Shown: piece by piece, positions 3,957-25,535 of the stretch
Position numbering within the stretch: position 1 is the stretch's first letter
How the letters are laid out: each line of letters opens with the position of its first letter
IMG/VR virus record: IMGVR_UViG_3300025759_000628
Coordinates: 1-25,535 of that record
Reading direction: 5' to 3' (one strand)
From: a virus
Length of the DNA: 25,535 nt
Translations under genes and position numbers: made by a program
Notes under the pieces: generated by a model
What the model was told of the DNA's origin: nothing
Seen by the model: only the letters and a program-made list of their open reading frames with translations
The model's database searches: none

Positions 3957-5828
3957 ATGGACATAATTACTATAGATTTTGAAACATATTACGACAAAGA
4001 CTTTTCTCTAGGTAAGCTGACCACAGAACAGTACGTGCGTAGCGCGGATTTTGAAGTCATAGGTGTAGGTGTTAAGCGCAATACGGAAGCTACGGTATGG
4101 GTAAGTGGGGGGCATGATGAGATCAAGAGGTATTTACACAATAATTATGTTTGGGAAGATTGCGCTGTTCTTGCCCACAATACTATTTTTGACGGCGCTA
4201 TACTTGGTTGGGTGTTTGATGTTCACCCTAAGCTATACCTTGACACGCTTTGCATGGCTCGCGCATTACACGGTGTGGAAGCAGGGGGGTCGCTTAGGTA
4301 CTTATCTGATAGGTACGGAATCGGAAAAAAGGGAGACGAAGTAATTCATGCGATAGGTAAGAGGCTTACCGATTTTACTTCGGAAGAACTAGATAGGTAT
4401 GGAGATTACTGCAAACAGGATGTGGAGCTTACTTACAGGCTATTCAACATATTCATACAGGACAAAAAATTTCCCCGCAAAGAACTAAAAGTTATAGATA
4501 TGACTTTACGTATGTTCATCGACCCAGTGCTCGAACTAGACATAGTAAAGCTGGAAAACCATTTAGATAACCTGCAACTACAAAAAGAGCACCTCCTGAA
4601 AGAGTGCGGCATAGGCAAAGATGAACTCATGTCGAATCCAAAATTTGCCAAGGCGCTAGAGTCTTTAGGTGTAGAGCCCCCAAAGAAAGTCAGTCTACGA
4701 ACTGGAAAAGAAACTTTTGCTTTTGCTAAAAGCGATGAGGGGTTTAAAGCCCTGCAAGAACACGAAGACCCGCGAGTGCAAGCCTTAGTCGCAGCTCGTG
4801 TAGGACTTAAGAGTACGTTAGAGGAAACACGTACTGAGAGATTTATTGACGTAGGAACACGTGGGGCATTGCCAGTCCCAATAAAATACTATGCTGCTCA
4901 TACCGGACGTTGGGGTGGGTACGACAAGATTAACATGCAAAACCTACCGTCACGTGGAGCCAACGCTAAAGTACTTAAGTCCTGTATATGCCCACCAGAC
5001 ACCCATACTTTAATCCATGCCGATTCTGCCCAGATAGAGGCTAGAGTATTGACGTGGTTAGCGGGTCAAGATGATGTGCTTGATTGTTTTAGGAAGGGGG
5101 AAGATGTATATAAGAAAATGGCGGCTACCATATACCGCGTGTCGGAATCTAAAGTAACTCCCCGCCAAAGGTTTATTGGCAAGACTACAATTTTAGGGGC
5201 TGGCTACGGTATGGGCGCGGTTAAATTCCAAGACCAGCTAAAAACTTTTGGTGTTGATGTGGAGCCCGACGAAGCCAAACATATAATTCGTACTTACAGG
5301 TACACACACTACGCGGTTACTGAGTTATGGAAGAAAGCGCAGACTGCACTGATGTGTATGTACCAAGGCTATTATGCAGAACTTGGACGTGAAGGAGTGC
5401 TCGAAGTAGTGCCCAGTCTAAACGCTATACAGCTTCCGTCGAATCTTATGATGTACTACAACGACTTGAAAGCCGAAGATTCCGAGAAGGGTGTACAGTT
5501 TTCTTACAGTACACGTAGGGGGCAAGTGAAGATATACGGCGGTAAAGTTATAGAGAACGTGTGTCAAGCTATTGCCCGATGTATCATGGCAGAGCAAATG
5601 CTTGAAATACAAAAGAAATATCCAGTCGTACTAACTGTACACGATTCTGTGATATGCTGCGTTAAGGATGCAGAAGTAGACGAAGCGGCTGCTTATGTGG
5701 ATTCCTGTATGCGTTATACACCAGAGTGGGCTACCGGCTTACCTGTCCGTGGTGACGTGGAAATTGGTAAGAATTACGGAGATTGTACCGAATGGAAACC
5801 AAACCAGCGTGGTCATTTAGCAGCATAA
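3957..5828 (+). CDS. polA: Family A DNA polymerase with 3'-5' exonuclease, 623 aa
   Basis: Replicative phage DNA polymerase of the Pol I/T7 type. The proofreading domain is intact: Exo I D-F-E-T (Asp7, Glu9), Exo II H-N-T-I-F-D (Asp79), Exo III Y-C-K-Q-D (Tyr151, Asp155). The 5'-3' nuclease domain is absent, as usual in phages. The polymerase domain shows T-G-R-W-G-G and N-M-Q-N-L-P near 318-332, motif A D-S-A-Q-I-E (Asp356, Glu361), motif B R-F-I-G-K ... L-G-A-G-Y-G (Arg405, Lys409, Leu413, Tyr417, Gly418) and motif C V-H-D-S (His562, Asp563). Leu413 occupies the place of E. coli Phe762, and Ser564 replaces the usual Glu of HDE. It is followed with a 37-base overlap by the Cas4-like nuclease. 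All key catalytic residues are present, so it should be active. Confidence 0.97.
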   Translation: MDIITIDFETYYDKDFSLGKLTTEQYVRSADFEVIGVGVKRNTEATVWVSGGHDEIKRYLHNNYVWEDCAVLAHNTIFDGAILGWVFDVHPKLYLDTLCMARALHGVEAGGSLRYLSDRYGIGKKGDEVIHAIGKRLTDFTSEELDRYGDYCKQDVELTYRLFNIFIQDKKFPRKELKVIDMTLRMFIDPVLELDIVKLENHLDNLQLQKEHLLKECGIGKDELMSNPKFAKALESLGVEPPKKVSLRTGKETFAFAKSDEGFKALQEHEDPRVQALVAARVGLKSTLEETRTERFIDVGTRGALPVPIKYYAAHTGRWGGYDKINMQNLPSRGANAKVLKSCICPPDTHTLIHADSAQIEARVLTWLAGQDDVLDCFRKGEDVYKKMAATIYRVSESKVTPRQRFIGKTTILGAGYGMGAVKFQDQLKTFGVDVEPDEAKHIIRTYRYTHYAVTELWKKAQTALMCMYQGYYAELGREGVLEVVPSLNAIQLPSNLMMYYNDLKAEDSEKGVQFSYSTRRGQVKIYGGKVIENVCQAIARCIMAEQMLEIQKKYPVVLTVHDSVICCVKDAEVDEAAAYVDSCMRYTPEWATGLPVRGDVEIGKNYGDCTEWKPNQRGHLAA

Positions 5829-13182: not shown

Positions 13183-13207
13183 TGCCCCCTACGTGGGGGC
13201 ATTTTTT
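13183..13207 (+). terminator. Rho-independent terminator of the plus-strand block
   Basis: Stem TGCCCCC (13183-13189) and GGGGGCA (13195-13201), loop TACGT, followed by six T (13202-13207). It stops transcription of the early block just where the convergent minus-strand virion genes end; its T-run overlaps their last stop codon (13206-13208). On the minus strand the hairpin is followed by CAAAAC rather than T residues, so it looks one-directional. Confidence 0.9.
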
Positions 13208-16200
13208 AGTCATATCCTTCTTCAAATTCTCGGTTAGATTGAATCATTTCTAAGACAGCGTTCCTTTCAACTGGAGCCCCACCCGTAAGTATTGCGCTTT
13301 CACTACGGCGCTGCCTCCCACTCATTGAACGTTTGATAGAATCTATAGATAAAGGTCTAGTTGGATGGTCTTTGTTGTATTCAGCCATATCCGCTATACC
13401 TTCCGATACCAGTTCCTCCCTTCCATTCTCTAGACCATAGATAATTTTATCCAGAATCTTAAGTGATCTAGCTTGCCTACCTTGATCCTTTCTAATGTTT
13501 ACAGATAATCTATCCCTAGCTGCTCTGTTTGAGGCGGGAGAAAAACCCATAGCCTGACCAATGATATCCGACATAGGCAGCTCTTCAGATATTATTGCGT
13601 CTCCCCTACCGGTTTCGTAACCTTTAGTGTAGAACCTGTAGGATTTAGCTACATTAGATAGTCCCGTAGGTATGAAGGATTCCAGAGCCCGATCTTTATT
13701 AGCTGGATTATCATCAAACAAGTCAATTAGACCACCCGCAGCCCGTATACCAACCCCATATGTAGGACCAAGCCATGCCTCGGCAAGTCCTTCCAGTTGA
13801 CTATCTGGTCGGTAATTACCTCTGTCTCGTACCATAAGGTTGGTTAACGCTATACGGTCTGTTAAATCTACCCCCGCATATGAGGCTATAAGTCCGTAGT
13901 ACTTCTCTTCCCCTATCATTTTAGCAATAAGGGTATTGGCGTCATCCTCATCATCTTCTAAGAACAAGTTCATAATAGAAGTTATTATACCGTACATCGG
14001 TATGCCTTTTACGCCAACCAACGCACCACCGGTTACAGTTAAGTAGAAGAACGTATTCCTTAATACTCTAGCTTCTTCTCGCTCCGTTTCAGTTCTAGCT
14101 TTACCGATAGCGTCGTCGAATAAAGTTTTAACCATACGTAGGTGAGTATAGAAAAACTGTGCCGGTACTCTTTTAAATTGCCACGCCAAAGCCCCAACCG
14201 AAGTCTGTGCAATTCTAGGCGCAGTAGTAAGCAGGGCCGATGAGTTAACGTACAAAGTTGTATCTATAGCGGTTTCGGCAGCCTGTTCTCCAAATTTGGC
14301 TATTTCGGCATCGGTTATATCTTTAAAAGAAACTTTACCTTCCTTGACCCCCCTGTCTTTCGCCACCAAGTTTTCTAACTCCAAACGATAGGTGCTCATC
14401 GCACTTACCTGCCTTATGCCGCGTTCAGAGTGGTTAAACAGGAATCCAGACCAATAATTTAGTTTGTTTACCCAAGGCGCTGTAGGGTTATCTAAGTCTG
14501 AGGTTTCACCAGCAATGGTTCGGGTATCCATACCACGATCTTTTAAGATTGTTTTGAGCGGATCATATTTAGCAAATCGGGCTTGTTTTTTAGTATCCCC
14601 AGAAAAATCGTTTGTTATAGAAAACCCGCCGAGTTCCAGTTTTGTTTTAGCCTCTCCAAGTGGTTTACCTTTTTCATCTACTTCTTGAAGGGCATCAACA
14701 GATACCATACCGAATGTGCTGGCATACTCTGTGGCTGCTATGGCTGTTGATTGAGTAGCACGTACACCACCATATTTACCAGCAAGTCTGGACTGTAGCA
14801 CCATAGGTACGATTGAAGAGTTAACTGCGACGGAGCTTATGTTACCCCCTAAAGTCCATACAAAGGTTCCGGAACGTAGCCAACGACTTATTGGCGGTAA
14901 ATACGGATTTTTAGCAAACTGTACATAACTTGGTAGTTTGCCAAACGCCTGCATCTCTCCAGTTTCTTGTGCCGTACCGGCTACTATAGTGGCAGCTTCT
15001 CTTGCTAAAGCCTCTTCTTCATCCAAGGCATCTCTTTGATTTCGTACCTTTTTACCCGCAAGTTCTAAATCTACAGAGTAAGTTAGTCCAGCTAGACTAC
15101 TTATAAACTGAGGAGCACGTTGTTGGAAAGAAGTAAGGGCGTCCCCCTCGAAAAAAGCAATTCCTTGTCGCACCATACGGGTTTGCATTAAGGTCTGATC
15201 TGGTAATGCTCGCAACATTACTTCAGATAAAAACTCGTTTACCTGTCTTTTACCTTCTTCGCTTTTTATATCCATAGCTTTAACTTTATTCTTTAAATCA
15301 GTTAAAAACGGGATAGGTATAGCGTTATCGTAAGTTCGCTTTTGTGTTTCCGCTAGAGACCTTGCTTTAACAGTTGAAGCATCTACTTCTGGAAGTGATT
15401 TAAGTTTTGTAATTGCTCTACTTCTTTGTAACCGAGAGTCAAACGAACCTGTACCGTATACGGTTTGTCCGTTTTCGTCTTTGTACATAAACTCTACCCA
15501 GTAGTCTCCGGAACGTGTTAGCGGGAAGTACGGCTCAATAAAACCGGCTTCTAGTCTTCTAAGAAACATTACATCTCGTATTGTCTTTTTAACGTCTTTT
15601 TCTGTTTCTAATTTATTTATATTAGCTTCTTCAGCTTTTATTATTGCTTCGTTTATGGCTTTGTAAAAATCTCTAAGCCCTGTGTACACACCACGCTGTT
15701 CTGCGTTAAGAGATTTAAACAACCTAACCACTTCTTCGTATTCTTTAATTCTTTTAGTGGTAGGTTCTATACTTTTTATTTCGCCAAGTATGATTGGGGG
15801 TTTGCCGGTTGCCTTTTCTGCTTCTTCTTGAGCCTGTTTATTGCCCTCCAACACAGCTTTGCGCTTATCCATAGCCTCTTTAGAGTTGAATTTCTCTTCC
15901 ACTCTTTTGTATGTGCCGGGGTCATCTTTAGTTTTACCGGGCGTAAATTCTCCATATACAAGCCAATGCTTACGTACTTTATCTTCGTCTATGGTAGGGT
16001 CTATGCGGTTTATAGTAGAAGAAGCCACTAGCGTGTTAAATGTCTCTCGTGCATTTTTGTTTCCTTTAAACGCTTTATTAGCTTGCTCAAGAATGTAATG
16101 GTACTGTTTCATACCATTTACTCTCACCCCATCAATTTTATACAGTATACGTTCTACTTCTTTTGCGGCGGGTATTTTATTTTTTAACAAATCTGTTATA

Positions 16201-19200
16201 GCTTCGAGACCAACTCCGTTCAAGAAATTAGCCCTTACCCGCTCTTCTGTACCTGCAGCCCAGTCATATATTGCAGATGATGTGAGCGGGGTGTCTTTTA
16301 TGAAATTTTTGTTATTAGCCAGCAGATGAGTTACTACTTCCCCATCCTTACCTTCTGCCAAAGCGGTTGGTATTACAGTAGCTTTTCTCGTATCAGGTGA
16401 GCTAGCTAATAATGTGTTTATGAGGTCTACGGCTTCTGTACCAGCACTTTCTGCTTTTAGGCCGAATATCCTTCCGACAGCTTCCCAGAATTTTTGCCAT
16501 CCAGTTTTAGCTTTACCCGACGGTCTGAAAGCAGCTAGCTTGGCTTGAAACTCTGGGTTTACGAATGCCTCAGTAACAAAATCATTTAGTGAAGTCATAC
16601 CATAATCTTTAGGTAGTTTACCCTTCAATGATTCGTACAGTTTAGTAAGTGCTTTTGTTGTAGGGTGGGATTTGTTTTCAAGTGTTTTAACCGTAGCGGC
16701 GTGCCCTGCCTCATGCAGAATAGCGTGTGTGCTAAGTTCTACGGACGTGTTTATTACAATCGTATCAGTATCTTTATCGTATATGGCAGCTAAGACGTTA
16801 CCTTTATCATCATTTAGTTCTGAAGTCGTAGTTAGTTTCACCCCGCGCACAGCTTTAGCTAACGCTACCGTAATACTTTTAACTTTTACATTAGGGGACG
16901 AATCAAACACAGCTTTAAGCGCACCGAGTATGCTGCCCCTATTAACTTGTTCTTGTACGGCAGCTGGCGCGTTTGCCATAGTAGCCGCAACAGCATCGGC
17001 CCGCAGTTTCTCTTGATCTGTAATAAAAGCATCCAAAGCTGCAAAAGGATCATCGGAATCGGATATACCCTTCCTACCTGCCGCTTTACCTATTTCGTCG
17101 CCTAAGTCCCCCTCGTAAAAACTTTCATCCTGATACGCAATAAAATCATTCATAGCCTCCATTGTCATTTTGTCGTCGGCTACATCTTCATTTACGTAAT
17201 CGTCTACTATAGATTCTTCTATGCGCTTACGTTTTCTAGAACGGTTTCTCTTTACGTCCTCTTCTGTACGCTTAATTTCATCTTTTTCCGCACGTTCTGT
17301 AAGTCTTTCTAATGCGGGTATATTCTCTGGAGCTCGATTTTCTAACCATTTTTTAGCTGCAGCTGCCCTTTTTCTTTCATTTTTGTTTTTTACGCTTTGC
17401 CCACGAGCTTTAACTGAGTCGAACGCTATCTCACGCAATGCTAAATCTACATCTCCTTCAGTTAGATTGATGTAGTAAGACATAGCACCGTCGGGTGTAT
17501 ATTTATTTTTAGTAGTTAATTTTGTTGCTGCTACTCTAGCAAGTTGGTCGGGAGAATTTTTAAGGTTTTTTACTGTTCTAGCCCGGTCTCTTGGGGTAGC
17601 GTTGGATTTAGGTAGCGCTACTTTTTTCTTAGCCGGTGCCTTCTTAGCCGGTGCCTTCTTAGCCGGTGCCTTCTTAGCCGGAGCTTTCTTTTCAGCTGGA
17701 GCTTTCTTTTCAGCTGGAGCTTTCTTTTCAGCTGGAGCTTTCTTTTTAGCTGCTACTTTTTTCTTTGCAGGGGCTTTCTTTTCAACCGGAGCTTTCTCTT
17801 CAACCGGAGCTTTCTCTTCAACCGGTGCCTTCTCTTCAACCACTACTTCTTGGGCCGGTGCCTTCTCTTCAACCACTACTTCTTGGGCCAGTGCCTTCTC
17901 TTCAACCACTACTTCTTGGGCCGGTGCCTTATCTTCAACCACTACTTCTTGGGCCGGTGCCTTATCTTCAACCACTACTTCTTGGGCCGGTGCCTTATCT
18001 TCAACCACTACTTCTTGGGCCGGTGCCTTATCTTCAACCACTGTTTCTTGGGCTGGGGCTTGCTGTCGAGCCTGTTTGGCTTCTTGGACGGCTTTTTGGA
18101 ACTGTTGTAAAGCAGTGGGCCTTTTACGAGTAGGTGTAAGCAAGTCAAGTTGAGCTGCTGCTTCGGGTGTTTGTTGTAGAAAATTATTTATATTAACCTT
18201 TGTTTGATTGCTGACGTTTGCGTTTCTACCTAAATTAGTTAGTTCTGTACGAACTTGTTCACTTGTAACATCTGCACCTTTGAGTCTCCTTCTAATTGGA
18301 GCGTAGGGTGATATACCGAGCCGGTCAAAGAACCGCTTATCTGCTTTTTGTACTCTTGGTTGAGCAGCAGGTTGAGCAGCAGGTTGAGCAGCAGGTTGAG
18401 CAGCAGGACGTGCGCGATTTACAGCGGGGAATTCTAGTTGTCCTTCTAACCCCCTTCCGCGACGGTCCATCTGTTCTCTATTAAGACGGGCTTTTTCCCT
18501 AGCCTGTTGTTGCCTTTCACTTATACGTGGGTCTACCGGCTGTGGTCGAACACGTTCCGGCACTATAGTTTCCAATTCGGATACACCCGCTGCCTGCTCC
18601 CTAGCTTGGGCGGTGGCTTGTTCAGCAGCTTGGGTTAGTTCATATGATCTAGCAGTTATAGCCGCAAGTTCTTCTTGGTTTGGGGTGGTATTTGTAAAAC
18701 CTTGTCTACCTAATTCCGCACTAAAAGCACGTTCAAGATTTGTTGCATCGGGGATATCTCGTCGAGCCAGTATAGGTGCTAATACGGCGTTACGTTTTTC
18801 TCTAGTCTCTGCCTCACGTTGTTGCTGGACTCTGCGGTCGGCTTCGCCTAACTCCATTTGTTGCTCTACTGCCGCTACTTCTTCCTGTGCCGCACGTCTA
18901 GTTGCGCGTTGTGCATCCTCTTCAGCTTGTAATGCGGCTAGTTCATCTTCATCCAACATTTCTTGTATTTGTTGGGTTTCGAGAGCGTCGATAAGGTCTA
19001 TCTGCTCGGGCGCACTTTCCGGAGCCATTTGGGGGGCAGGTCGCTCATCCACTTGAAATTCAGGACGGGACAATAGCGCGTCTATGCGAGATACGGTTTC
19101 TGGTTTATTAGCCTGTACCGTACCTCTATTCCTATAAGTCGTTAATATATCTCTTGCTTTGGTTAAGTCTTCAGTTTGACTAAAATCTAAACCAGCTAAA

Positions 19201-20204
19201 GACTCCGCAGTTTTAGAGTCGAGATTGAACCCCATATCCTGCAAATCATCTACAGATAAAACTGTACCTGCATCTTGTCTACCAAATAGGTCTCCGCGCC
19301 TTCCAGTGGGAGTAACGGGAGCAGCGGGAGGTTCCGTACCTTCTTCAAATACGCTTGTGTCGAAATCACCACGCGTACCGCGTTTTGGTTTTATTATGAG
19401 ATCGGCGAGAAACTGTAATATACCACCTACCCCACCGCCTATCTTGGCAGATTCCGATACGCCTTCAAATAACCCGGTGTCAGGATCGTAGATACCACGA
19501 GCAATTAGATTCTGTAAGGTTTCTGCTGATGCTTCTTGCGCTGCTTCTGTTAGTGCGGCTTCTCCTATACGCCCTACTCGGGTGTCCCCAACACGTTTAA
19601 TAAAAGATTTGTTAACAGCATCTACTATTTCGTCTGCGTTACGACCTAAAACTCTGCGGGCTATACGAACAGGCGTTATTACTTCAGTAACCCCCGGAAT
19701 CATACCGTAAGCTGCTGCCCTACTTATTTCTTCTTCAGTAGCCCCTGCCGCTTCAGCACGTTGAGCAGCCTCACCCGCGCCAGCACTTACCCCCATTCCC
19801 ACACCTAAAGCTATACCCGCAGGACCAGCAAGTGCTAAAGGTAGATATGGTGCGGTAGAACCTAACCCCCGCATAAGGTCTAAGTAAGTGCCCTCGTAGG
19901 CTTCATCAGGGGCAAGAGCCTCTTGTATACCCCCGCCAATTTCGGAAATCCTACGCCTAGCTGCTTGCTCTTGTTCTTCAGGTAAAAGAAAGGATAGTCC
20001 GGCAGCTGCCGACTCCAGCATACCCGCCCCACCAGCACCAAGGGCCTTTAATGTCTCAGCACCGTACCCCAGTAAAGATGTATCCTCTTCCGGTGGTTTA
20101 AAAGCATCCGGGTAATTCAAACTTATTATCCGGCGTATTTCTTCACGGGGCATTTCATCTGGAAACCGGACTAGTTGCCCATCTGGAGCGCGTACTATAG
20201 GCAT
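13206..20204 (-). CDS. Giant polyvalent/internal virion protein with HExxH metallopeptidase, 2332 aa
   Basis: Opens with M-P-I-V-R-A-P-D-G-Q and a P-D-x-M-x-x-E-E-I segment, an N-terminus I associate with phage internal virion proteins. Hydrophobic Gly/Ala segments at 44-75 and 113-147 and near 2050-2087 could insert in membranes. Residues 400-700 are Gln/Glu/Ala-rich coiled coil; 599-615 are (AAQP)n; 716-861 are nested repeats that go from acidic to Lys-rich. A zincin site H-E-A-G-H lies at 1164-1168 with Glu1212 (F-V-T-E-A-F) as candidate third ligand. Residues 1300-2300 are helical, typical of large polyvalent-protein regions. Size and last place after the transglycosylase gene suggest a T7 gp16-like ejection role. 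Weak AAGGGTAG ribosome site, 12-base gap from the gene before. Peptidase activity is inferred. Confidence 0.85.
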   Translation of the reverse strand: MPIVRAPDGQLVRFPDEMPREEIRRIISLNYPDAFKPPEEDTSLLGYGAETLKALGAGGAGMLESAAAGLSFLLPEEQEQAARRRISEIGGGIQEALAPDEAYEGTYLDLMRGLGSTAPYLPLALAGPAGIALGVGMGVSAGAGEAAQRAEAAGATEEEISRAAAYGMIPGVTEVITPVRIARRVLGRNADEIVDAVNKSFIKRVGDTRVGRIGEAALTEAAQEASAETLQNLIARGIYDPDTGLFEGVSESAKIGGGVGGILQFLADLIIKPKRGTRGDFDTSVFEEGTEPPAAPVTPTGRRGDLFGRQDAGTVLSVDDLQDMGFNLDSKTAESLAGLDFSQTEDLTKARDILTTYRNRGTVQANKPETVSRIDALLSRPEFQVDERPAPQMAPESAPEQIDLIDALETQQIQEMLDEDELAALQAEEDAQRATRRAAQEEVAAVEQQMELGEADRRVQQQREAETREKRNAVLAPILARRDIPDATNLERAFSAELGRQGFTNTTPNQEELAAITARSYELTQAAEQATAQAREQAAGVSELETIVPERVRPQPVDPRISERQQQAREKARLNREQMDRRGRGLEGQLEFPAVNRARPAAQPAAQPAAQPAAQPRVQKADKRFFDRLGISPYAPIRRRLKGADVTSEQVRTELTNLGRNANVSNQTKVNINNFLQQTPEAAAQLDLLTPTRKRPTALQQFQKAVQEAKQARQQAPAQETVVEDKAPAQEVVVEDKAPAQEVVVEDKAPAQEVVVEDKAPAQEVVVEEKALAQEVVVEEKAPAQEVVVEEKAPVEEKAPVEEKAPVEKKAPAKKKVAAKKKAPAEKKAPAEKKAPAEKKAPAKKAPAKKAPAKKAPAKKKVALPKSNATPRDRARTVKNLKNSPDQLARVAATKLTTKNKYTPDGAMSYYINLTEGDVDLALREIAFDSVKARGQSVKNKNERKRAAAAKKWLENRAPENIPALERLTERAEKDEIKRTEEDVKRNRSRKRKRIEESIVDDYVNEDVADDKMTMEAMNDFIAYQDESFYEGDLGDEIGKAAGRKGISDSDDPFAALDAFITDQEKLRADAVAATMANAPAAVQEQVNRGSILGALKAVFDSSPNVKVKSITVALAKAVRGVKLTTTSELNDDKGNVLAAIYDKDTDTIVINTSVELSTHAILHEAGHAATVKTLENKSHPTTKALTKLYESLKGKLPKDYGMTSLNDFVTEAFVNPEFQAKLAAFRPSGKAKTGWQKFWEAVGRIFGLKAESAGTEAVDLINTLLASSPDTRKATVIPTALAEGKDGEVVTHLLANNKNFIKDTPLTSSAIYDWAAGTEERVRANFLNGVGLEAITDLLKNKIPAAKEVERILYKIDGVRVNGMKQYHYILEQANKAFKGNKNARETFNTLVASSTINRIDPTIDEDKVRKHWLVYGEFTPGKTKDDPGTYKRVEEKFNSKEAMDKRKAVLEGNKQAQEEAEKATGKPPIILGEIKSIEPTTKRIKEYEEVVRLFKSLNAEQRGVYTGLRDFYKAINEAIIKAEEANINKLETEKDVKKTIRDVMFLRRLEAGFIEPYFPLTRSGDYWVEFMYKDENGQTVYGTGSFDSRLQRSRAITKLKSLPEVDASTVKARSLAETQKRTYDNAIPIPFLTDLKNKVKAMDIKSEEGKRQVNEFLSEVMLRALPDQTLMQTRMVRQGIAFFEGDALTSFQQRAPQFISSLAGLTYSVDLELAGKKVRNQRDALDEEEALAREAATIVAGTAQETGEMQAFGKLPSYVQFAKNPYLPPISRWLRSGTFVWTLGGNISSVAVNSSIVPMVLQSRLAGKYGGVRATQSTAIAATEYASTFGMVSVDALQEVDEKGKPLGEAKTKLELGGFSITNDFSGDTKKQARFAKYDPLKTILKDRGMDTRTIAGETSDLDNPTAPWVNKLNYWSGFLFNHSERGIRQVSAMSTYRLELENLVAKDRGVKEGKVSFKDITDAEIAKFGEQAAETAIDTTLYVNSSALLTTAPRIAQTSVGALAWQFKRVPAQFFYTHLRMVKTLFDDAIGKARTETEREEARVLRNTFFYLTVTGGALVGVKGIPMYGIITSIMNLFLEDDEDDANTLIAKMIGEEKYYGLIASYAGVDLTDRIALTNLMVRDRGNYRPDSQLEGLAEAWLGPTYGVGIRAAGGLIDLFDDNPANKDRALESFIPTGLSNVAKSYRFYTKGYETGRGDAIISEELPMSDIIGQAMGFSPASNRAARDRLSVNIRKDQGRQARSLKILDKIIYGLENGREELVSEGIADMAEYNKDHPTRPLSIDSIKRSMSGRQRRSESAILTGGAPVERNAVLEMIQSNREFEEGYD
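17622..18059 (-). repeat. Nested in-frame repeats with charge switch
   Basis: Inside the 2332-residue gene, residues 716-861. In protein order: seven 11-residue units of APAQEVVVEDK type (33-base period, 17835 onward), then 6-residue units APVEEK twice and APVEKK once, then APAKKKVAAKKK, three APAEKK, and four APAKK (15 bases). Every unit is a multiple of three bases. The net charge moves steadily from negative to strongly positive. The Lys-Ala-Pro end resembles histone H1 or AlgP-type tails. Confidence 0.95.
18362..18409 (-). repeat. 12-base tandem repeat, AAQP x4
   Basis: Four tandem copies of a 12-base unit within the 2332-residue gene, encoding (AAQP)4 at about residues 599-615. Codon-multiple unit; probably a flexible linker. 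Confidence 0.9.
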
Positions 20205-20216
20205 AGAAAACTACCC

Positions 20217-23200
20217 TTATTGCTCCGAAAGATATTCGGTGTAGTCCACTACTGATTCATTTCTTGAAGAAATAGGATTACCAACGCCTATCTCTCCTAG
20301 TAGATTCTGCATCTGCTCTATATACCCGCTGCGTTGTTCTTTTAGTGCGTTTATGTCAGCTTGTAATCGCTCGATATGTTCTGGTGGCAAGTCTGCAGAT
20401 TGTGCAAGTAGTAAATTTTCCTCAAGAGCTATAATTTGCTCGTCTATGTCAGCTATAAGTCTTTGTTGGGGTGATAGTAAAGCAGCCTTAGTTTGATCCT
20501 TTCTAGCTTGTATTTCTTCTTGAGCCAGCAACTGCTCTACTACGCCTTGCCGTTGTTGTTGCGCTCTGTCAGAAATTGCCTGTCGCATATTACGCAGGTT
20601 TTGAGTTCCATAACCAAGGGCGGCAGGAATAGAAGTTCCTTGGCTAGCCCCTATGGCAGTAAATATATCCGCAAGCCGACTGAGTTTCGATCTGGGTTTA
20701 TTTATCTCAGCTAGTTGCTGTTCTATTAACTCGTCAAACTTACTGCCTAACTGTCGGTCTTGTTGCTGTGAAGCTAGAGAACTTAGTCCTTCACTTTCTC
20801 TTTTACGTCTTGTTTCATCCACAGCAGCTTGAAGGAACTGCCGAGCTTCGTCGTCGTTACCTTCATTTTCTCTTTCTCTTTCTCTTTTACGTCTTGTTTC
20901 ATCCACAGCAGCTTGCAAGAACTGCCGAGCTTCGTCGTCGTTACCTTCATTTTCTTGAGGAGGTACGTTAGGGGGCTCTTTACGTTCTTCTCTTTCTCGC
21001 CTCATACGTTCTTGATATGTCTCTGGAGCATTAGTGGCAATTTCTCTACCCCCAGCAAATCTAAAAGTTCTTTCATTAGACGACTGATTTTCTTGTATTG
21101 GGTAAGTCTGCTCATCAATATACTCAGGCACAGTTGGGTAATCATGCTCGCGTTGTTTGCCGAGTAAATAAGCCTTGGGGGCTCCGCCCAGAGAATCAAA
21201 TATAGTAGGTAATCCAACTATACCACCGTTAGGCGATCTGCCGGACGCACGGGTACTAGTGGGTGTCTCAGGTCTTCTTGCGCTATTTTGCTCTTCGTAC
21301 CTAGCAAGAACTTTTGATGGATACTCTATGGTTTCTTTGGGCAATTCACCGCCTCGCAGTACTCTTCCGGGGCCCGCATTGTATGCTTGCAGTGCATCAT
21401 CCACGTTCCCAAATCTACCTACCATAGCAAGAAAATACTCTTCAGCAAGTCTTCTTTGCTGTTCCTCAGTAGCGTTTTCCAAGTCAATAGGTGTAACTCC
21501 ATACCCCGGATCACCGGCAGTATCAAGCATTATTTGGTAGAGGCCCCTAGCTCCTGCAGGGCTAACTGCATTTGGGTTGTCAGTGCTTTCTACAAACTTT
21601 ATAGCGTCCAGTATCTCTTCTAGAGTCATTCCTTCTTCTTCTAGCACCTTCCTGCCTTCTTCTATGTACCCACCATCCAAGTACCCGCGTTTTTCCGCTG
21701 CCTTCATAGCTTTTAATTTTTCGGTGAAGATGGGGTTTTTCTTTTTAAGTTTGAGAGGTCCTCCATACGACGCGAGATCATTCTCGGAATCCCTATAAAA
21801 CCCGTAAGGTCTCTTAGCGTATAACAGCGCCTCAAGTAAATTTATAGAGTTTTTTTCTTCTTCTCTGCGCTCTCGTTCTATAGCTGCTAGTTCGTCGTTA
21901 AACTCCTTACTACCGGGCCCAAAAGGCCCCATCGGGTTTCTAGTAGTAATCATCGTCGGATAAGCAGGGATATTAGCTCCGGTTCTACCCATTTGGTCAA
22001 AAAACGGTTCCCGACCAACATCACCACCCTCTGCGTACCCACGAACAATACCACCGCCCATCATGCCATTGAGACTGGCGTCTAGTTCGGATTGGGAATG
22101 CGCCATACCTTTTAAGCTGTCTATGTACTGCCTAACTTTGGCATAGCTGTTACCCATACGCCGAATATGTTCCTGCAGTAAAGTGTTAACCATTTCAGGG
22201 TCTGAAGTATTGGGGTTTTTAACTTGAGCCTCCAGCATCATAAGAAGTTCGGCATCTTCTTTAGCTTGTTCGTCTAATTGAGGAGTACCCATGTTAGGCG
22301 ACGCTCCCAGTTTGGGTTTAGTATCATCGACATCACCACCCTCTGCATACCCACGAACAATACCACCGCCCATCATACGGTTAGCTTGGCCTGTACCTTG
22401 TATTTGTTGCCCAAAGTTTTGTAGTTCTTGAGCGATCTGAAACGCTTTTTTAACGTTAGGGTCGTCCGACTTCTCCATTTCTTTTAGTTTTCGTTCGACT
22501 TTTTGTCGATCACCTTCCGGCACATTAGGGTCTTTCAGCATTCCTTCTAATACAGCAATTTGGAATACTTCCTTGTTAACTTCTTCCGAAACTTTAGGTA
22601 GCTCGGCTACTCCGCCTTCAGCGTAACGCCTATATCTGTCTCTACCTCTATCTCTATCTCTATCTCTATCCCTACCTCTGTACCTGCCTTCTGGATCGTA
22701 ATTAGGGGCCACTATGCCTGCCTCTTGGTATGGGTAAGGACCTCCGGGGGCTAGAGAAAAATCTGGGGCAAGACCAACTGGAGATTCAACTTCAAGCATA
22801 GGAGGCAAACCGGATATACCACTATCTACGTAACGCCTACCTCTATCCCTACCGCTATCCCTACCTCTGTACCTACCCTCTGGATCGTAATTAGGGGCCA
22901 CTATGCCTGCCTCTTGGTATGGCAATAAAGGCGTGGCGGGATTAACAATCCCTGTGACTGGAGGATACCCATAATCTGCAGAAGGGTCTTGGTAAGAATT
23001 ATCAGGAGCACCCATTATAGGTAGTGGGACTAGACCAACTGAAGAAGTATCTTCAGGCAGTAAGGGCTCAACAAACCCACCATCTGCGTAACCACGTAAC
23101 GACATTAACCCTCCACCAGCAGCCATGCGTGGCATACCTTGGGGCATACCTTGGGGCATACCTTGGGGCATACCTTGGGGCATACCTTGGGGCATACCTT

Positions 23201-23588
23201 GGGGCATAGGAGGACGAGCTTGAGGCAACCCAGCCAACCCGCCACCGGGCATAGCCGGTCTTTGGGGCATAGGAGGACGCCCCATTTGCTGTTGTTGCAT
23301 ACGTTGTCCTTGGATAGCCAGACCCGGCGCAACTCGCTGGGCTACTTCTTGTCTAGTCATACCCATAACTTGTTGTTCTAGTTGGTCTTTTACGCTATTA
23401 GCAGGTGTTTGTTGGCTCATTTGTATACCCCTAGCGGCGGCCTCTTTATCGTTTTTCACCTTCTGCAAGGCAAGTACTTCTACGATATCTTGACCCCGAT
23501 TCTGCTGCACCCGCTGCTGTAAATTTTGAGGGTTACCAGAGTTTAAGTCCGCTAGTATGTCAGATTGCCTATCTATACCGTATGCCAT
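20217..23588 (-). CDS. Virion protein with embedded lytic transglycosylase domain, 1123 aa
   Basis: The N-terminal 60 residues are helical, followed by a long Pro/Gly/Met/Gln-rich disordered part with tandem P-Q-G-M copies, Arg/Asp runs and repeated R-G-Y-A-E-G-G elements. Residues about 650-770 form an SLT (soluble lytic transglycosylase) fold: catalytic Glu667 in F-V-E-S-T, then S-P-A-G-A-R-G-L-Y-Q-I, then A-L-Q-A-Y-N-A-G-P-G-R-V. This would open peptidoglycan during DNA entry, as T7 gp16 does. The C-terminal third is Gln/Arg/Glu-rich coiled coil with a duplicated 28-residue unit. It lies between the 331- and 2332-residue genes, all minus strand. AAAGG precedes ATG 23588. The scaffold outside the SLT domain matches no family I know. 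Confidence 0.9.
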   Translation of the reverse strand: MAYGIDRQSDILADLNSGNPQNLQQRVQQNRGQDIVEVLALQKVKNDKEAAARGIQMSQQTPANSVKDQLEQQVMGMTRQEVAQRVAPGLAIQGQRMQQQQMGRPPMPQRPAMPGGGLAGLPQARPPMPQGMPQGMPQGMPQGMPQGMPQGMPRMAAGGGLMSLRGYADGGFVEPLLPEDTSSVGLVPLPIMGAPDNSYQDPSADYGYPPVTGIVNPATPLLPYQEAGIVAPNYDPEGRYRGRDSGRDRGRRYVDSGISGLPPMLEVESPVGLAPDFSLAPGGPYPYQEAGIVAPNYDPEGRYRGRDRDRDRDRGRDRYRRYAEGGVAELPKVSEEVNKEVFQIAVLEGMLKDPNVPEGDRQKVERKLKEMEKSDDPNVKKAFQIAQELQNFGQQIQGTGQANRMMGGGIVRGYAEGGDVDDTKPKLGASPNMGTPQLDEQAKEDAELLMMLEAQVKNPNTSDPEMVNTLLQEHIRRMGNSYAKVRQYIDSLKGMAHSQSELDASLNGMMGGGIVRGYAEGGDVGREPFFDQMGRTGANIPAYPTMITTRNPMGPFGPGSKEFNDELAAIERERREEEKNSINLLEALLYAKRPYGFYRDSENDLASYGGPLKLKKKNPIFTEKLKAMKAAEKRGYLDGGYIEEGRKVLEEEGMTLEEILDAIKFVESTDNPNAVSPAGARGLYQIMLDTAGDPGYGVTPIDLENATEEQQRRLAEEYFLAMVGRFGNVDDALQAYNAGPGRVLRGGELPKETIEYPSKVLARYEEQNSARRPETPTSTRASGRSPNGGIVGLPTIFDSLGGAPKAYLLGKQREHDYPTVPEYIDEQTYPIQENQSSNERTFRFAGGREIATNAPETYQERMRREREERKEPPNVPPQENEGNDDEARQFLQAAVDETRRKRERERENEGNDDEARQFLQAAVDETRRKRESEGLSSLASQQQDRQLGSKFDELIEQQLAEINKPRSKLSRLADIFTAIGASQGTSIPAALGYGTQNLRNMRQAISDRAQQQRQGVVEQLLAQEEIQARKDQTKAALLSPQQRLIADIDEQIIALEENLLLAQSADLPPEHIERLQADINALKEQRSGYIEQMQNLLGEIGVGNPISSRNESVVDYTEYLSEQ
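20796..20955 (-). repeat. Duplicated 28-residue coiled-coil unit
   Basis: Two near-identical 76-base copies, 20796-20871 and 20880-20955, at an 84-base period, each encoding EGNDDEARQFLQAAVDETRR plus KRE. In frame, so the copy number can change without breaking the gene. Confidence 0.9.
22019..22380 (-). repeat. Pair of GGGIVRGYAEGGDV repeats
   Basis: Two copies of about 50 bases (starting near 22019 and 22331, 312 bases apart, in frame) encode MMGGGIVRGYAEGGDV. They flank a helical segment of about 85 residues, as if marking its borders. Confidence 0.85.
22647..22670 (-). repeat. Hexamer repeat encoding Arg-Asp
   Basis: Tandem CTCTAT hexamers encode R-D-R-D-R-D in the 1123-residue protein. 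A short simple repeat likely to vary by slippage in six-base steps. Confidence 0.8.
22671..22922 (-). repeat. 63-base direct repeat pair
   Basis: Copies at 22671-22733 and 22860-22922 differ at two bases and are 189 bases apart, in frame. Each encodes PYQEAGIVAPNYDPEGRYRG. Confidence 0.9.
23131..23202 (-). repeat. 12-base tandem repeat, PQGM x6
   Basis: Six perfect tandem copies of GGCATACCTTGG (plus-strand sense) encode (PQGM)6, with a degenerate copy at the border. Perfect conservation suggests recent expansion. Confidence 0.95.
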
Positions 23589-23612
23589 CTTATTTACCTT
23601 TAATCCGTTCTA

Positions 23613-23717
23613 CGACCCAACATTTCCGTAATAAGTCGTATTAGTCGTATTAGTCGTGCCGCTATCACCACCGCCGCCGCTATTATCACCACCGCCGCCG
23701 CTATTACCACCACCTTA
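23613..23717 (-). other. In-frame Gly-rich tail after the UAA of the 331-aa gene
   Basis: The TAA at 23715-23717 is followed in the same frame by 34 sense codons, ending at TAG 23610-23612. They encode two and a half units of GGGGDNS type, then (TNT)-like repeats and Y-Y-G-N-V-G-S. No ATG, GTG or TTG lies in this frame after the TAA, so it can only be translated by readthrough. Its unit lengths (21, 18 and 9 bases) are codon multiples. With it, the gap to the next gene is 21 bases; without it, 126. Confidence 0.6.
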
Positions 23718-24710
23718 GCCCCAAATGTCCCAGTTCGGAAACAACGTTTTTAGTTCGTTCAAGCCTTCCAAACCAAAACCAAGAACACTAGCCATCTGTG
23801 CAAAAGTTGAAGACTCAGCTCGATCATATATGGTCTGTCCTAAAGGCAGTCCGCTTAACAGAGAGGAATACAGCGCAATATTTTTTAGGGGCCATCCGGT
23901 TTCCATTTCAAATTGTCGTAGTTGCGCGGCAACTTCATCGGCTTCAATACCACGCTCTATGCCACCGGCAGTAAGCAACTGGGACAATCTGTCGGCATCC
24001 AACTGATATCCAGCACGTAGCAGGTTAGCTTCTGACTGGAATGCATTAAGCGCATTATTAAGGGCCTGCATACCGTATTGTGCGGCAAACTGATTTGCAC
24101 TTTCCCCAAACTTGGCTGCGTCCAATGCGCGGGCTTGGTCTGCCGTAAATGCCTGCAACCCTTGCTCGTAAGCGCGTTGGTACCCCTGCCCAGTAATGTT
24201 TTCAACTTGTTGCTGAAAATTTCTTTCCCTCTCAGCATCCATTATGGCTTGGCGACCACCGCCAAAAGAACCAGCTTTAGCCATACGGCTAGCTTGCTGC
24301 TCACCACTAATATCCGATTGTCTTCGGGCTTCCGCTATTTGAGGTTGGACTACCCCTTCTATATAGGGCGACATGTACTCTTGGTAGAAATCCGGATACC
24401 TACCAGTAGTTAAAGCCCCAGACGGGGTATAAGTGCTTCCATACAAAGAACTTGCTATATTACCCATACCACTTTGCAGACCAGTGAAATCAGGTGTGGT
24501 TAAGTTTGGATACCCTGTAAAAGCAAGGTTTTGTAAGGAGCTAGCTGGAGCGGACAAAGAACCGGTATACGAAGGGTACTGGGCCCCAATTAGGTTACTG
24601 ATCCCCCAATTCAACATCCCATAAGTATAGGGTTCAGCCCAAGGGGATAAACTGTCTGCTTTACCTACTACTTGACCTGCTAACGGATCAGTTACGACTC
24701 CATCTGGCAT
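23715..24710 (-). CDS. Ala/Gln-rich virion protein, gp14-like by position, 331 aa
   Basis: The first 115 residues are Ser/Thr/Tyr/Pro/Gly-rich and low in charge. Residues about 115-260 are continuous amphipathic helix: M-S-P-Y-I-E-G-V-V, A-G-S-F-G-G-G-R-Q-A-I-M-D-A-E-R, and Ala/Gln-rich heptads. The F-G-G-x-R-Q-A-x-M-x-A-E-R element is one I associate with structural proteins of marine phages. It is the first of three genes that together look like an ejection set, so a T7 gp14 analogue is proposed by order and composition, not homology. The ATG overlaps the previous stop (TAATG), and GGGAGGGGAAG precedes it, predicting strong coupled translation. A Gly-rich frame follows its stop without interruption. 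Confidence 0.8.
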   Translation of the reverse strand: MPDGVVTDPLAGQVVGKADSLSPWAEPYTYGMLNWGISNLIGAQYPSYTGSLSAPASSLQNLAFTGYPNLTTPDFTGLQSGMGNIASSLYGSTYTPSGALTTGRYPDFYQEYMSPYIEGVVQPQIAEARRQSDISGEQQASRMAKAGSFGGGRQAIMDAERERNFQQQVENITGQGYQRAYEQGLQAFTADQARALDAAKFGESANQFAAQYGMQALNNALNAFQSEANLLRAGYQLDADRLSQLLTAGGIERGIEADEVAAQLRQFEMETGWPLKNIALYSSLLSGLPLGQTIYDRAESSTFAQMASVLGFGLEGLNELKTLFPNWDIWG

Positions 24711-25535
24711 TATCTTCCCCTCCCTGTACCGGGAACATAGTTATACGGATTAATTTGCCGCCCTTGATCTGGAGTTCCAGTGCGGGCAGTGCGGACACTT
24801 TCTAACATGTCGTATAGGACTTCGGCACCAGCATCTGAATTACCGTTACCGAGGTGGCTAACAACGTCTGCCGGTATTACAAACTCACCGTCACTTAAAG
24901 CAACCGGTTCTACGTTGTTGATATTACCGGGAATTTTATCAGCCATTCCGTCAGTTGGTCCACCTAAATATAGCCCCCTAGTTGCAATGGGGCCTCCCTC
25001 TGCAAAACCCATAAATCCTTTTTTCTTCACCGCACCACCAGAAGCAGCAAAAGAACTAAACATATCCTCTTCGGGTTTCTCATCGTCTTTGAGCATGTTT
25101 ATCAAATACTCAAACAAATCTTGGCCTTCCAGACCTTGCTGTTCGCCTTGCTCAAGTGCAGCTACTATATCCTGCCTATCAGTTTCTGCTAAATCAGGGC
25201 TACCCGTGTCGAATTGCCCGTAAGTAGTAGCATTTTCACCTTGGAATACTTCACCCTTATAAGGGTCGAAAACATCTTTTTTGGCGTAAAGGGGTTCTCT
25301 CCTACCCACATCGGAAGCAGACATACCCGTAAACCCAAATCCGCCAGAGGGAGGGGGAGGGGGCGGCGGTTCTACTTCACCATCTATTACTTCATCATCT
25401 ATTACTTCATCATCTACTTCATCATCTATTACTTCATCATTTACTTCATCATTTACTTCATCATTTACTTCATCATTTACTTCATCATTTACTTCATCAT
25501 TTACTTCATCATTTACTTCATCATTTACTTCTTTA
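24710..25535 (-). CDS. Virion protein, C-terminal part only (gene continues past the window)
   Basis: The frame is open from the right edge of the window to TAA 24710-24712, giving about 275 codons. An ATG at 25324 has no ribosome site and the frame continues upstream without a stop, so it is an internal Met. In order: a tandem D-E-V-N/D-E-V-I tract, a P-P-P-P-P-P-P linker, G-G-F-G-F-T-G, an acidic helical part, K-G-F-M-G-F-A-E-G-G-P, and a conserved-looking end with G-G-P-T-D-G-M-A-D-K-I-P, S-D-G-E-F-V-I-P-A-D-V-V and H-L-G-N-G-N-S-D-A-G. I recall that last block at the C-termini of many marine phage structural proteins. The function and the N-terminus cannot be seen. Confidence 0.8.
   Translation of the reverse strand, partial: KEVNDEVNDEVNDEVNDEVNDEVNDEVNDEVNDEVIDDEVDDEVIDDEVIDGEVEPPPPPPPSGGFGFTGMSASDVGRREPLYAKKDVFDPYKGEVFQGENATTYGQFDTGSPDLAETDRQDIVAALEQGEQQGLEGQDLFEYLINMLKDDEKPEEDMFSSFAASGGAVKKKGFMGFAEGGPIATRGLYLGGPTDGMADKIPGNINNVEPVALSDGEFVIPADVVSHLGNGNSDAGAEVLYDMLESVRTARTGTPDQGRQINPYNYVPGTGRGR
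25370..25535 (-). repeat. 12-base tandem repeats, (DEVN)n
   Basis: Eight units with a 12-base spacing run from about 25440 to 25531 (DEVN), preceded in protein order by the window edge and followed by degenerate units of DEVI-D and DEV-D type (25370-25440). All stay in frame. The true number of copies is unknown because the tract runs off the window. Confidence 0.9.

Follow-up and report, generated by a model that had tools for sequence, protein, structure and literature searches.

A short peptide shared by several proteins that are sent into a phage head is known from T4, whose capsid targeting sequence, N-terminal and removed by gp21, directs several internal proteins into the head. For phage P22, the account given in PMC8402733 has the ejection proteins recruited by the scaffolding protein, with gp7 binding the procapsid via residues 21-154 and gp20 via its first 314 residues. 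Even in P22, little is understood of how ejection proteins are brought into the head in fixed number and fixed order. Here, a short element, in its strict form [YF]x[DE]GG, was analyzed in a block of four large minus-strand genes (A, 24710-25534; B, 23715-24710; C, 20217-23588; D, 13206-20204) from an uncultured virus. The window, i.e. the whole stretch of DNA that was analyzed, is the complete IMG/VR virus record IMGVR_UViG_3300025759_000628 (25,535 bases); gene A is truncated at the end of the record, and the window thus represents a partial genome. Based on homology, including the match of gene B to an ejection protein family, genes A to D look like the ejection-protein block of a bacterial virus, and several of their products are probably injected into the host. 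The element was found to be conserved and order-specific, to lie near domain borders and to be shared among neighboring genes of this block.

A six-frame scan of the window for [YF]x[DE]GG recovered six minus-strand copies, one in gene A (FAEGG, 24992-25006) and five in gene C (YADGG, 23076-23090; YAEGG, 22611-22625, 22335-22349 and 22023-22037; YLDGG, 21669-21683), the only further match (5087-5101, plus strand) falling in a stop-interrupted frame. All six had been located, to within a few bases, by an earlier sequence-only reading of this DNA, which assigned them to two successive proteins; A and C are in fact separated by gene B, which is free of copies. The five copies in gene C (1123 amino acids) were far above chance (mean of 0.097 in shuffled sequences, with five or more in 0 of 2000 shuffles), whereas the single copy in gene A is unremarkable by itself (122 of 2000 shuffles reach one). 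The copy in gene A reads GFAEGG (24992-25009) and stands immediately ahead of the conserved module of that protein. Those of gene C, all on the minus strand, correspond to element 1 (MAAGGGLMSLRGYADGGFV, 23070-23126), whose position is homologous to that of the element conserved in C proteins; element 2 (RRYAEGGVA, 22605-22631), detected by motif scan; elements 3 and 4 (both MMGGGIVRGYAEGGDV; 22329-22376 and 22017-22064), following helical units 1 and 2, respectively; and element 5 (RGYLDGGYIE, 21660-21689), directly ahead of the SLT transglycosylase domain (21345-21629, minus strand, residues 654-748; PF01464, E = 5.8e-13).

The remark of the earlier reading that copies often follow Met/Gly-rich stretches was confirmed, and the degenerate RYVDSG that it placed before ISGLP is present as well (YVDSGIS, 22812-22832, minus strand). 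Two further degenerate copies, both YQEAGIV, can be added on the same strand: the first (22899-22919) lies within a 21-amino-acid repeat, and the second (22710-22730) in a 63-base repeat identical to the first at 61 of 63 bases. The 21-amino-acid repeat itself, YQEAGIVAPNYDPEGRYRGRD, occurs twice in 22668-22919, with Arg/Asp-rich runs coming next. The statement that the copies differ in DNA needs amending for elements 3 and 4, which form one 48-base stretch with 46 of 48 bases identical; this identity ceases at both edges, where flanking 12-base steps agree at 1 to 4 of 12 positions, i.e. at chance level. The helical stretches that precede these two elements show a distant likeness (score of 49 vs. 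25.5 for shuffled sequences, equaled in 3 of 1000 shuffles).

In order to evaluate conservation, relatives were retrieved by a similarity search of IMG/VR with gene A (at least 595 matches, 80 of them kept), a procedure by which A-bearing phages are favored. Loci with a missing or too-short neighboring gene were excluded from the per-gene block analysis, and counts were made non-redundant at 70% identity. The motif was found in the homologous proteins of these phages, shared among several genes of the block; the sequence-only reading had made its interpretation depend on this point. The core common to the uncultured relatives is [YF]xxGG, with a third position not bound to D or E, and it often constitutes the second half of a fuller, bipartite form, M-A-x-G-G-I-V-G-[YF]-x-x-G-G (with an optional residue, M-A-x-G-G-I-V-(x)-G-[YF]-x-x-G-G), which explains the Met/Gly-rich context of the copies.

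A first alignment of C proteins comprised 26 rows (the window plus 25 of 58 relatives, hand-picked mostly where the element was visible, 16-26% identical to the window). Only 3 of its 2013 columns were invariant, Gly159, Gly160 and Gly170, all inside the element; position 167 was Y or F in 25 of the 26 proteins, and position 169 was E or D in 13, with Q, A, N, P, K or V in the remainder. The SLT domain was detected in just six of these 26 proteins, indicating that conservation of the element exceeds that of the enzyme. In an unselected alignment of the first 420 residues, which included all 58 usable relatives and the window, the first Gly pair was kept in 100% and 98% of the 59 proteins; conservation was 83% for the Ile, 75% for the Val, 83% for the Gly that comes after [YF]xx and 69% for the Gly following that one. 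The pattern GGx[VIMA]x(0-4)[YFL]xxG was present within the first 330 residues of 47 of the 59 C proteins, against a mean of 2.5 (maximum of 8) in shuffled sequences and 3 of 59 in reversed proteins. Codons at the glycines of the element and third codon positions vary between phages, suggesting that the protein sequence is what is kept. Between 0 and 3 copies of [YF]xxGG per C protein were found in the 58 relatives, and the strict form [YF]x[DE]GG was absent from 39, present once in 17, twice in one and three times in one; the five strict copies of the window are the highest count found.

The element was not restricted to gene C. Among non-redundant proteins, matches to [YF]xxGG were found for C in 40 of 51 (first 250 residues; shuffle mean 4.2; reversed motif 8), for A in 35 of 64 (just ahead of its conserved module; shuffles 3.7; reversed motif 7) and for the gene preceding A in 22 of 55 (last 60 residues; shuffles 2.5; reversed motif 0), as well as after the module in 16 of 16 A-B fused proteins (shuffles 1.9; reversed motif 1), the latter count taking in a conserved K-F-x-P-G-G that fits [YF]xxGG by itself. 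The N-termini of B proteins were also considered as carriers of the motif and discarded for lack of enrichment (2 of 38 non-redundant, with 0.9 in shuffles and 0 for the reversed motif). A profile was then made from 20 distinct C elements, those of the window excluded. It recovered the window's elements 3 and 4 (E = 3.4e-4 and 0.044, respectively) and produced 103 hits at E ≤ 10, training rows among them, vs. 2 in reversed proteins. When four records of 58-63 kb were scanned in pieces (250 open reading frames, ORFs), the same profile gave seven hits at E ≤ 1, of which six fell in A or C and the seventh in a 95-amino-acid ORF, with none in reversed proteins.

Among cultured phages, the A homologue of MinM2 carries YAEGG, and the third gene YADGG. 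Neither the element nor the GEFV module of gene A, described below, was detected by regular expression in the retrieved stretches of PEp14, Rollin and RHph_TM27A, and [YF]x[DENTSQRKA]GG was not found in ORFs of at least 80 amino acids in those of CV-1-33 and HTVC024P. No description of the motif was found in the titles and opening lines of abstracts covered by a limited literature search. As a separate observation, a small Lys-rich protein of a relative, encoded far from the A-C block (locus L420, record G018, 50496-50888), carries MNMGGMAMKKKGYAKGGKV, which resembles the bipartite element; no additional case emerged from a narrow search of other loci.

These patterns are tentatively read as those of a short linear docking motif that co-assembles ejected proteins, located mostly in disordered linkers between folded parts and common with tape measure proteins of long-tailed phages. 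Docking is favored because an order-specific aromatic, an aliphatic pair and Gly-Gly turns recur in several co-encoded proteins, whereas a plain spacer would keep composition only. We infer that the products of A, C and the gene preceding A would bind one putative common partner or each other, the contact being made by the aromatic and aliphatic residues that Gly-Gly turns enclose, and that the ejection proteins would thereby be collected into one pre-ejection assembly, putatively in the procapsid core or the portal lumen. In gene C of the window, avidity might be raised by the five copies plus the three degenerate ones. The conserved element is real and can be placed, with moderate confidence, among shared assembly or targeting peptides, docking being the better half of the earlier interpretation, which had offered a docking peptide or a cleavage site: an order-specific motif common to neighboring genes and many relatives speaks for the former, while the unfixed acidic residue and the lack of matches to the proteases searched for (see below) speak against the latter. 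As the motif is among the best-kept parts of a fast-changing ejection protein, it would offer a testable handle on the gathering step.

Entry through N-terminal regions, as described for gp7 and gp20 of P22, is what would be expected if the N-terminal element of C were the ticket. The block resembles that of P22 gp7, gp20 and gp16 in encoding co-ejected proteins, gene B matching phrog_4287; on the other hand, the three P22 proteins contain neither [YF]xxGG nor the bipartite form, gene C here has a transglycosylase, and the P22-type portal (PF16510) was found in 0 of 22 relatives (records of at least 30 kb). In contrast to the T4 capsid targeting sequence, the present element lies within the protein and can occur in several copies, and no cutting of it is known.

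Predicted structures fit a linear motif lying in linkers for three of the five copies in C and for the copy in A. The model of A had a mean predicted local distance difference test score (pLDDT) of 63.9, with values < 50 for residues 105-122, which hold FAEGG. That of C averaged 56.9, and its segments with pLDDT < 50 included 146-305, 401-436 and 509-554, corresponding to elements 1, 3 and 4; helices 335-405 and 436-509 were more confident, with element 2 at a helix end and element 5 between two helices. The C model had no match in the PDB at E ≤ 0.001. In a viral structure library, the A model had a single hit at E ≤ 0.001, an uncharacterised protein of an uncultured phage, and the A alignment profile retrieved only a portal (E = 0.73) from PDB sequences.

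Several results weigh against the docking reading. The invariance in the 26-row alignment is flattered by the choice of rows, since all eight relatives that wholly lack [YF]xxGG in C (8 of 58) are absent from it, and other sites are also well kept in the unselected alignment (Gly at window residue 143, 98%; Pro at 295, 90%). Gene B, the best ejection-protein match, is free of the motif in the window and unenriched in relatives. In the four long records, the profile gave 33 hits at E ≤ 10 vs. 13 in reversed proteins, and only the stronger hits there carry much meaning. Furthermore, the near-identity of elements 3 and 4 suggests that copy number in gene C can grow through copying of DNA without selection for binding, and the low confidence of the structural models may reflect shallow alignments.

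The alternative that survives best, and which we consider possible although doubtful, is that of inter-domain punctuation, in which the element would bind nothing and would serve at module borders as a Gly-rich, flexible spacer through which modules can be swapped or duplicated. Copies do lie near domain borders (ahead of the GEFV module, behind the helical units and ahead of the SLT domain), elements 3 and 4 are alike at 46 of 48 bases between flanks at chance level, and codon identity was higher within an ORF (0.56) than between loci (0.39), which shared codon usage could explain. Moreover, tail-fibre modules are described as separated by glycine-rich motifs (PMC7230728), to which the present short Gly-rich separators between modules are comparable; unlike those, the present ones occur in predicted internal or ejection proteins, mostly bear an aromatic residue and have a fixed order. 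A spacer needs composition and not order, yet reversal reduced the hits from 103 to 2 in the profile search and from 47 to 3 of 59 proteins in the pattern search. Likewise, an aromatic residue in 25 of the 26 picked C proteins and a Gly pair kept in 100% and 98% of the 59 go beyond what a spacer requires, and third codon positions differ between phages. Shuffling at the DNA level was also considered as a general cause and was not shown, elements 3 and 4 of the window being the clear case.

The relation of the element to tape measure proteins, a part of the docking reading, was approached through gene A, a 5'-open ORF (24710-25534, minus strand) cut by the end of the record, with 274 visible amino acids, an acidic repeat at its start and a tape-measure-like module at its C-terminus; the A proteins of relatives range from 187 to 1142 amino acids. 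The module (FAEGG...YLGGPTDGMADKIP...LSDGEFVIPADVVSHLGNGNSDAGA...RTG...P, 24746-25006, minus strand), here called the GEFV module, has invariant columns among 55 aligned sequences including the window, and its members match PHROG tape measure families. For A of the window, no Pfam or PHROG family scored better than 0.001, the best PHROG match of its module being a weak one (phrog_8892, E = 0.025). Among 56 members of the A family, 33 matched phrog_3547 (best 1.3e-4) and 11 matched phrog_6090 (best 2.4e-6) at E ≤ 0.1, and 8 of the 10 listed PHROG families matched by A members are tape measure families, the other two being unnamed. PF09718 (Tape_meas_lam_C) had no match in A of the window at E ≤ 10 and was not among the families matched by any of the 56 members at E ≤ 1. 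In lambda gpH, FATGG (733), GEFV (754) and YATGG (778) follow the order seen in A and in the A-B fused relatives, and a profile-profile comparison (hhalign) of the A module with lambda-type (gpH) modules gave a weak, suggestive probability of 62% over 27 columns. The present proteins thus share with lambda gpH and the PHROG tape measures a GEFV-type module flanked by [YF]AxGG, and differ from tape measures in having the module on a smaller protein of its own and the element distributed across several genes of the ejection block. The C-terminal helix of lambda gpH (818-842) is described as remaining in the virion tip (PMC10721106).

IMG/VR was also searched with a DNA pattern for GGIVGYxxGG, and 80 loci were analyzed among the matches listed (81 matches, 80 of them in ORFs of at least 100 amino acids). 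A GEFV-type module was present on the same strand for 38 of those 80 ORF matches, and among the 60 with at least 2.2 kb upstream it was found upstream in 34 and solely downstream in 2; at least seven of the loci are on the same contigs as loci from the search with A (e.g. L175 and L037). Six of the 14 long ORFs listed with GGIVGYxxGG were scanned, and five were tape measure proteins according to PHROGs, the sixth being unassigned. In bacterial and archaeal genomes, the same pattern gave 80 loci (up to 8 kb) among the matches listed, with 82 matches and the module in none of them, and many of the cellular proteins resemble GLUG-type repeat proteins. The expectation of the sequence-only reading that the motif should not be equally frequent in unrelated Gly-rich proteins was therefore only half borne out, as bare GGIVGYxxGG also occurs in Gly-rich cellular proteins and loose [YF]xxGG is repeated in Gly-rich, tail-fibre-like ORFs of one long record; the string is not diagnostic alone, whereas its company is. 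The presence of the motif in tape measures too provides a sequence link between the ejection machineries of short-tailed and long-tailed phages. A broader proposal, which seems rather unlikely, is that GGIVG[YF]xxGG plus the GEFV module constitutes a general assembly or ejection tag, carried on one chain in long-tailed tape measures and on separate ejection proteins in short-tailed phages; if true, tape measures and ejection proteins would represent variants of a single core, loaded into the portal and leaving through it.

It is improbable that the element is a site of proteolytic maturation, at which a phage or host protease would cut between [YF]xx and GG during head assembly and free the modules. 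The acidic residue at position 3 was present in 13 of the 26 picked C proteins, the others having Q, A, N, P, K or V, i.e. even Pro and Lys at the would-be P1 position. The lambda product gpH* is of approximately 78 kDa. Lambda gpH is described as cleaved (PMC3224144), and FATGG at 733 would leave an N-terminal part of 79.9 kDa; similarly, the ejection protein gp7 of P22 loses 20 residues through a cut by host OpdA between SYPE and KGGKGG, as reported in PMC8402733, and in A-B fused relatives the element sits at the junction. The T5 tape measure protein is described as cut after R1127 (PMC10038345). The search for a prohead protease among relatives found S78, ClpP and S49 proteases in 0 of the 22 records of at least 30 kb. 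Ten of the same 22 records had a Terminase_6C (PF17289) match, indicating that packaging genes are often present, the other 12 not being shown to hold them; as further terminase controls, phrog_2 matched 1 and PF03237 matched 6 of the 22, and a search for S77 was uninformative, with no match in any control. Least probable of all is a remnant of descent, by which copies from the flanks of the tape-measure GEFV module would have spread by duplication and been weakly kept: the FATGG-GEFV-YATGG order of lambda gpH equals that of A and the fused relatives and A members match tape measure PHROGs, but few sites of the C family are kept as well as the Gly pair of the element, and lambda gpH taken alone is weakly tied to the A module by profile comparison (hhalign probability of 62%).

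Regarding the remaining genes, B (23715-24710, minus strand, 331 amino acids, element absent) had a weak match to phrog_4287, 'DNA ejection protein' (E = 0.0017), that was stronger for the B proteins of two relatives (1.7e-5 and 6e-7). The plus strand of the window contains replication genes (DNA polymerase A, an SNF2-type helicase, a DUF927 primase/helicase and an exonuclease), and no head genes were recognised within the window. In two relatives, a class 3 lipase gene lies upstream of A (L167, 4679-5434; L170, 278-1018; PF01764 and PHROG esterase/lipase). Gene D (13206-20204, minus strand, 2332 amino acids), next in the block, also lacks the element, and its C-terminal part resembles giant PLxRFG/DarB-like proteins of phages of approximately 55-63 kb (Klebsiella, Erwinia, Ochrobactrum and others), with 19-30% identity. 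In gene C, an 84-base tandem duplication (20790-20955; 2.0 copies, 96% match) yields ENEGNDDEARQFLQAAVDETRRKRE twice. In gene D, 17626-18053 (minus strand) holds APAQEVVVEDK units repeated in tandem and, after them, a histone-tail-like stretch rich in Lys, Ala and Pro, with tandem arrays of 15, 18 and 33 bases. Finally, the record terminates in a 12-base tandem array (25387-25531, 11.6 copies) corresponding to the acidic EVND repeats that start A, perhaps the point at which the assembly stopped.

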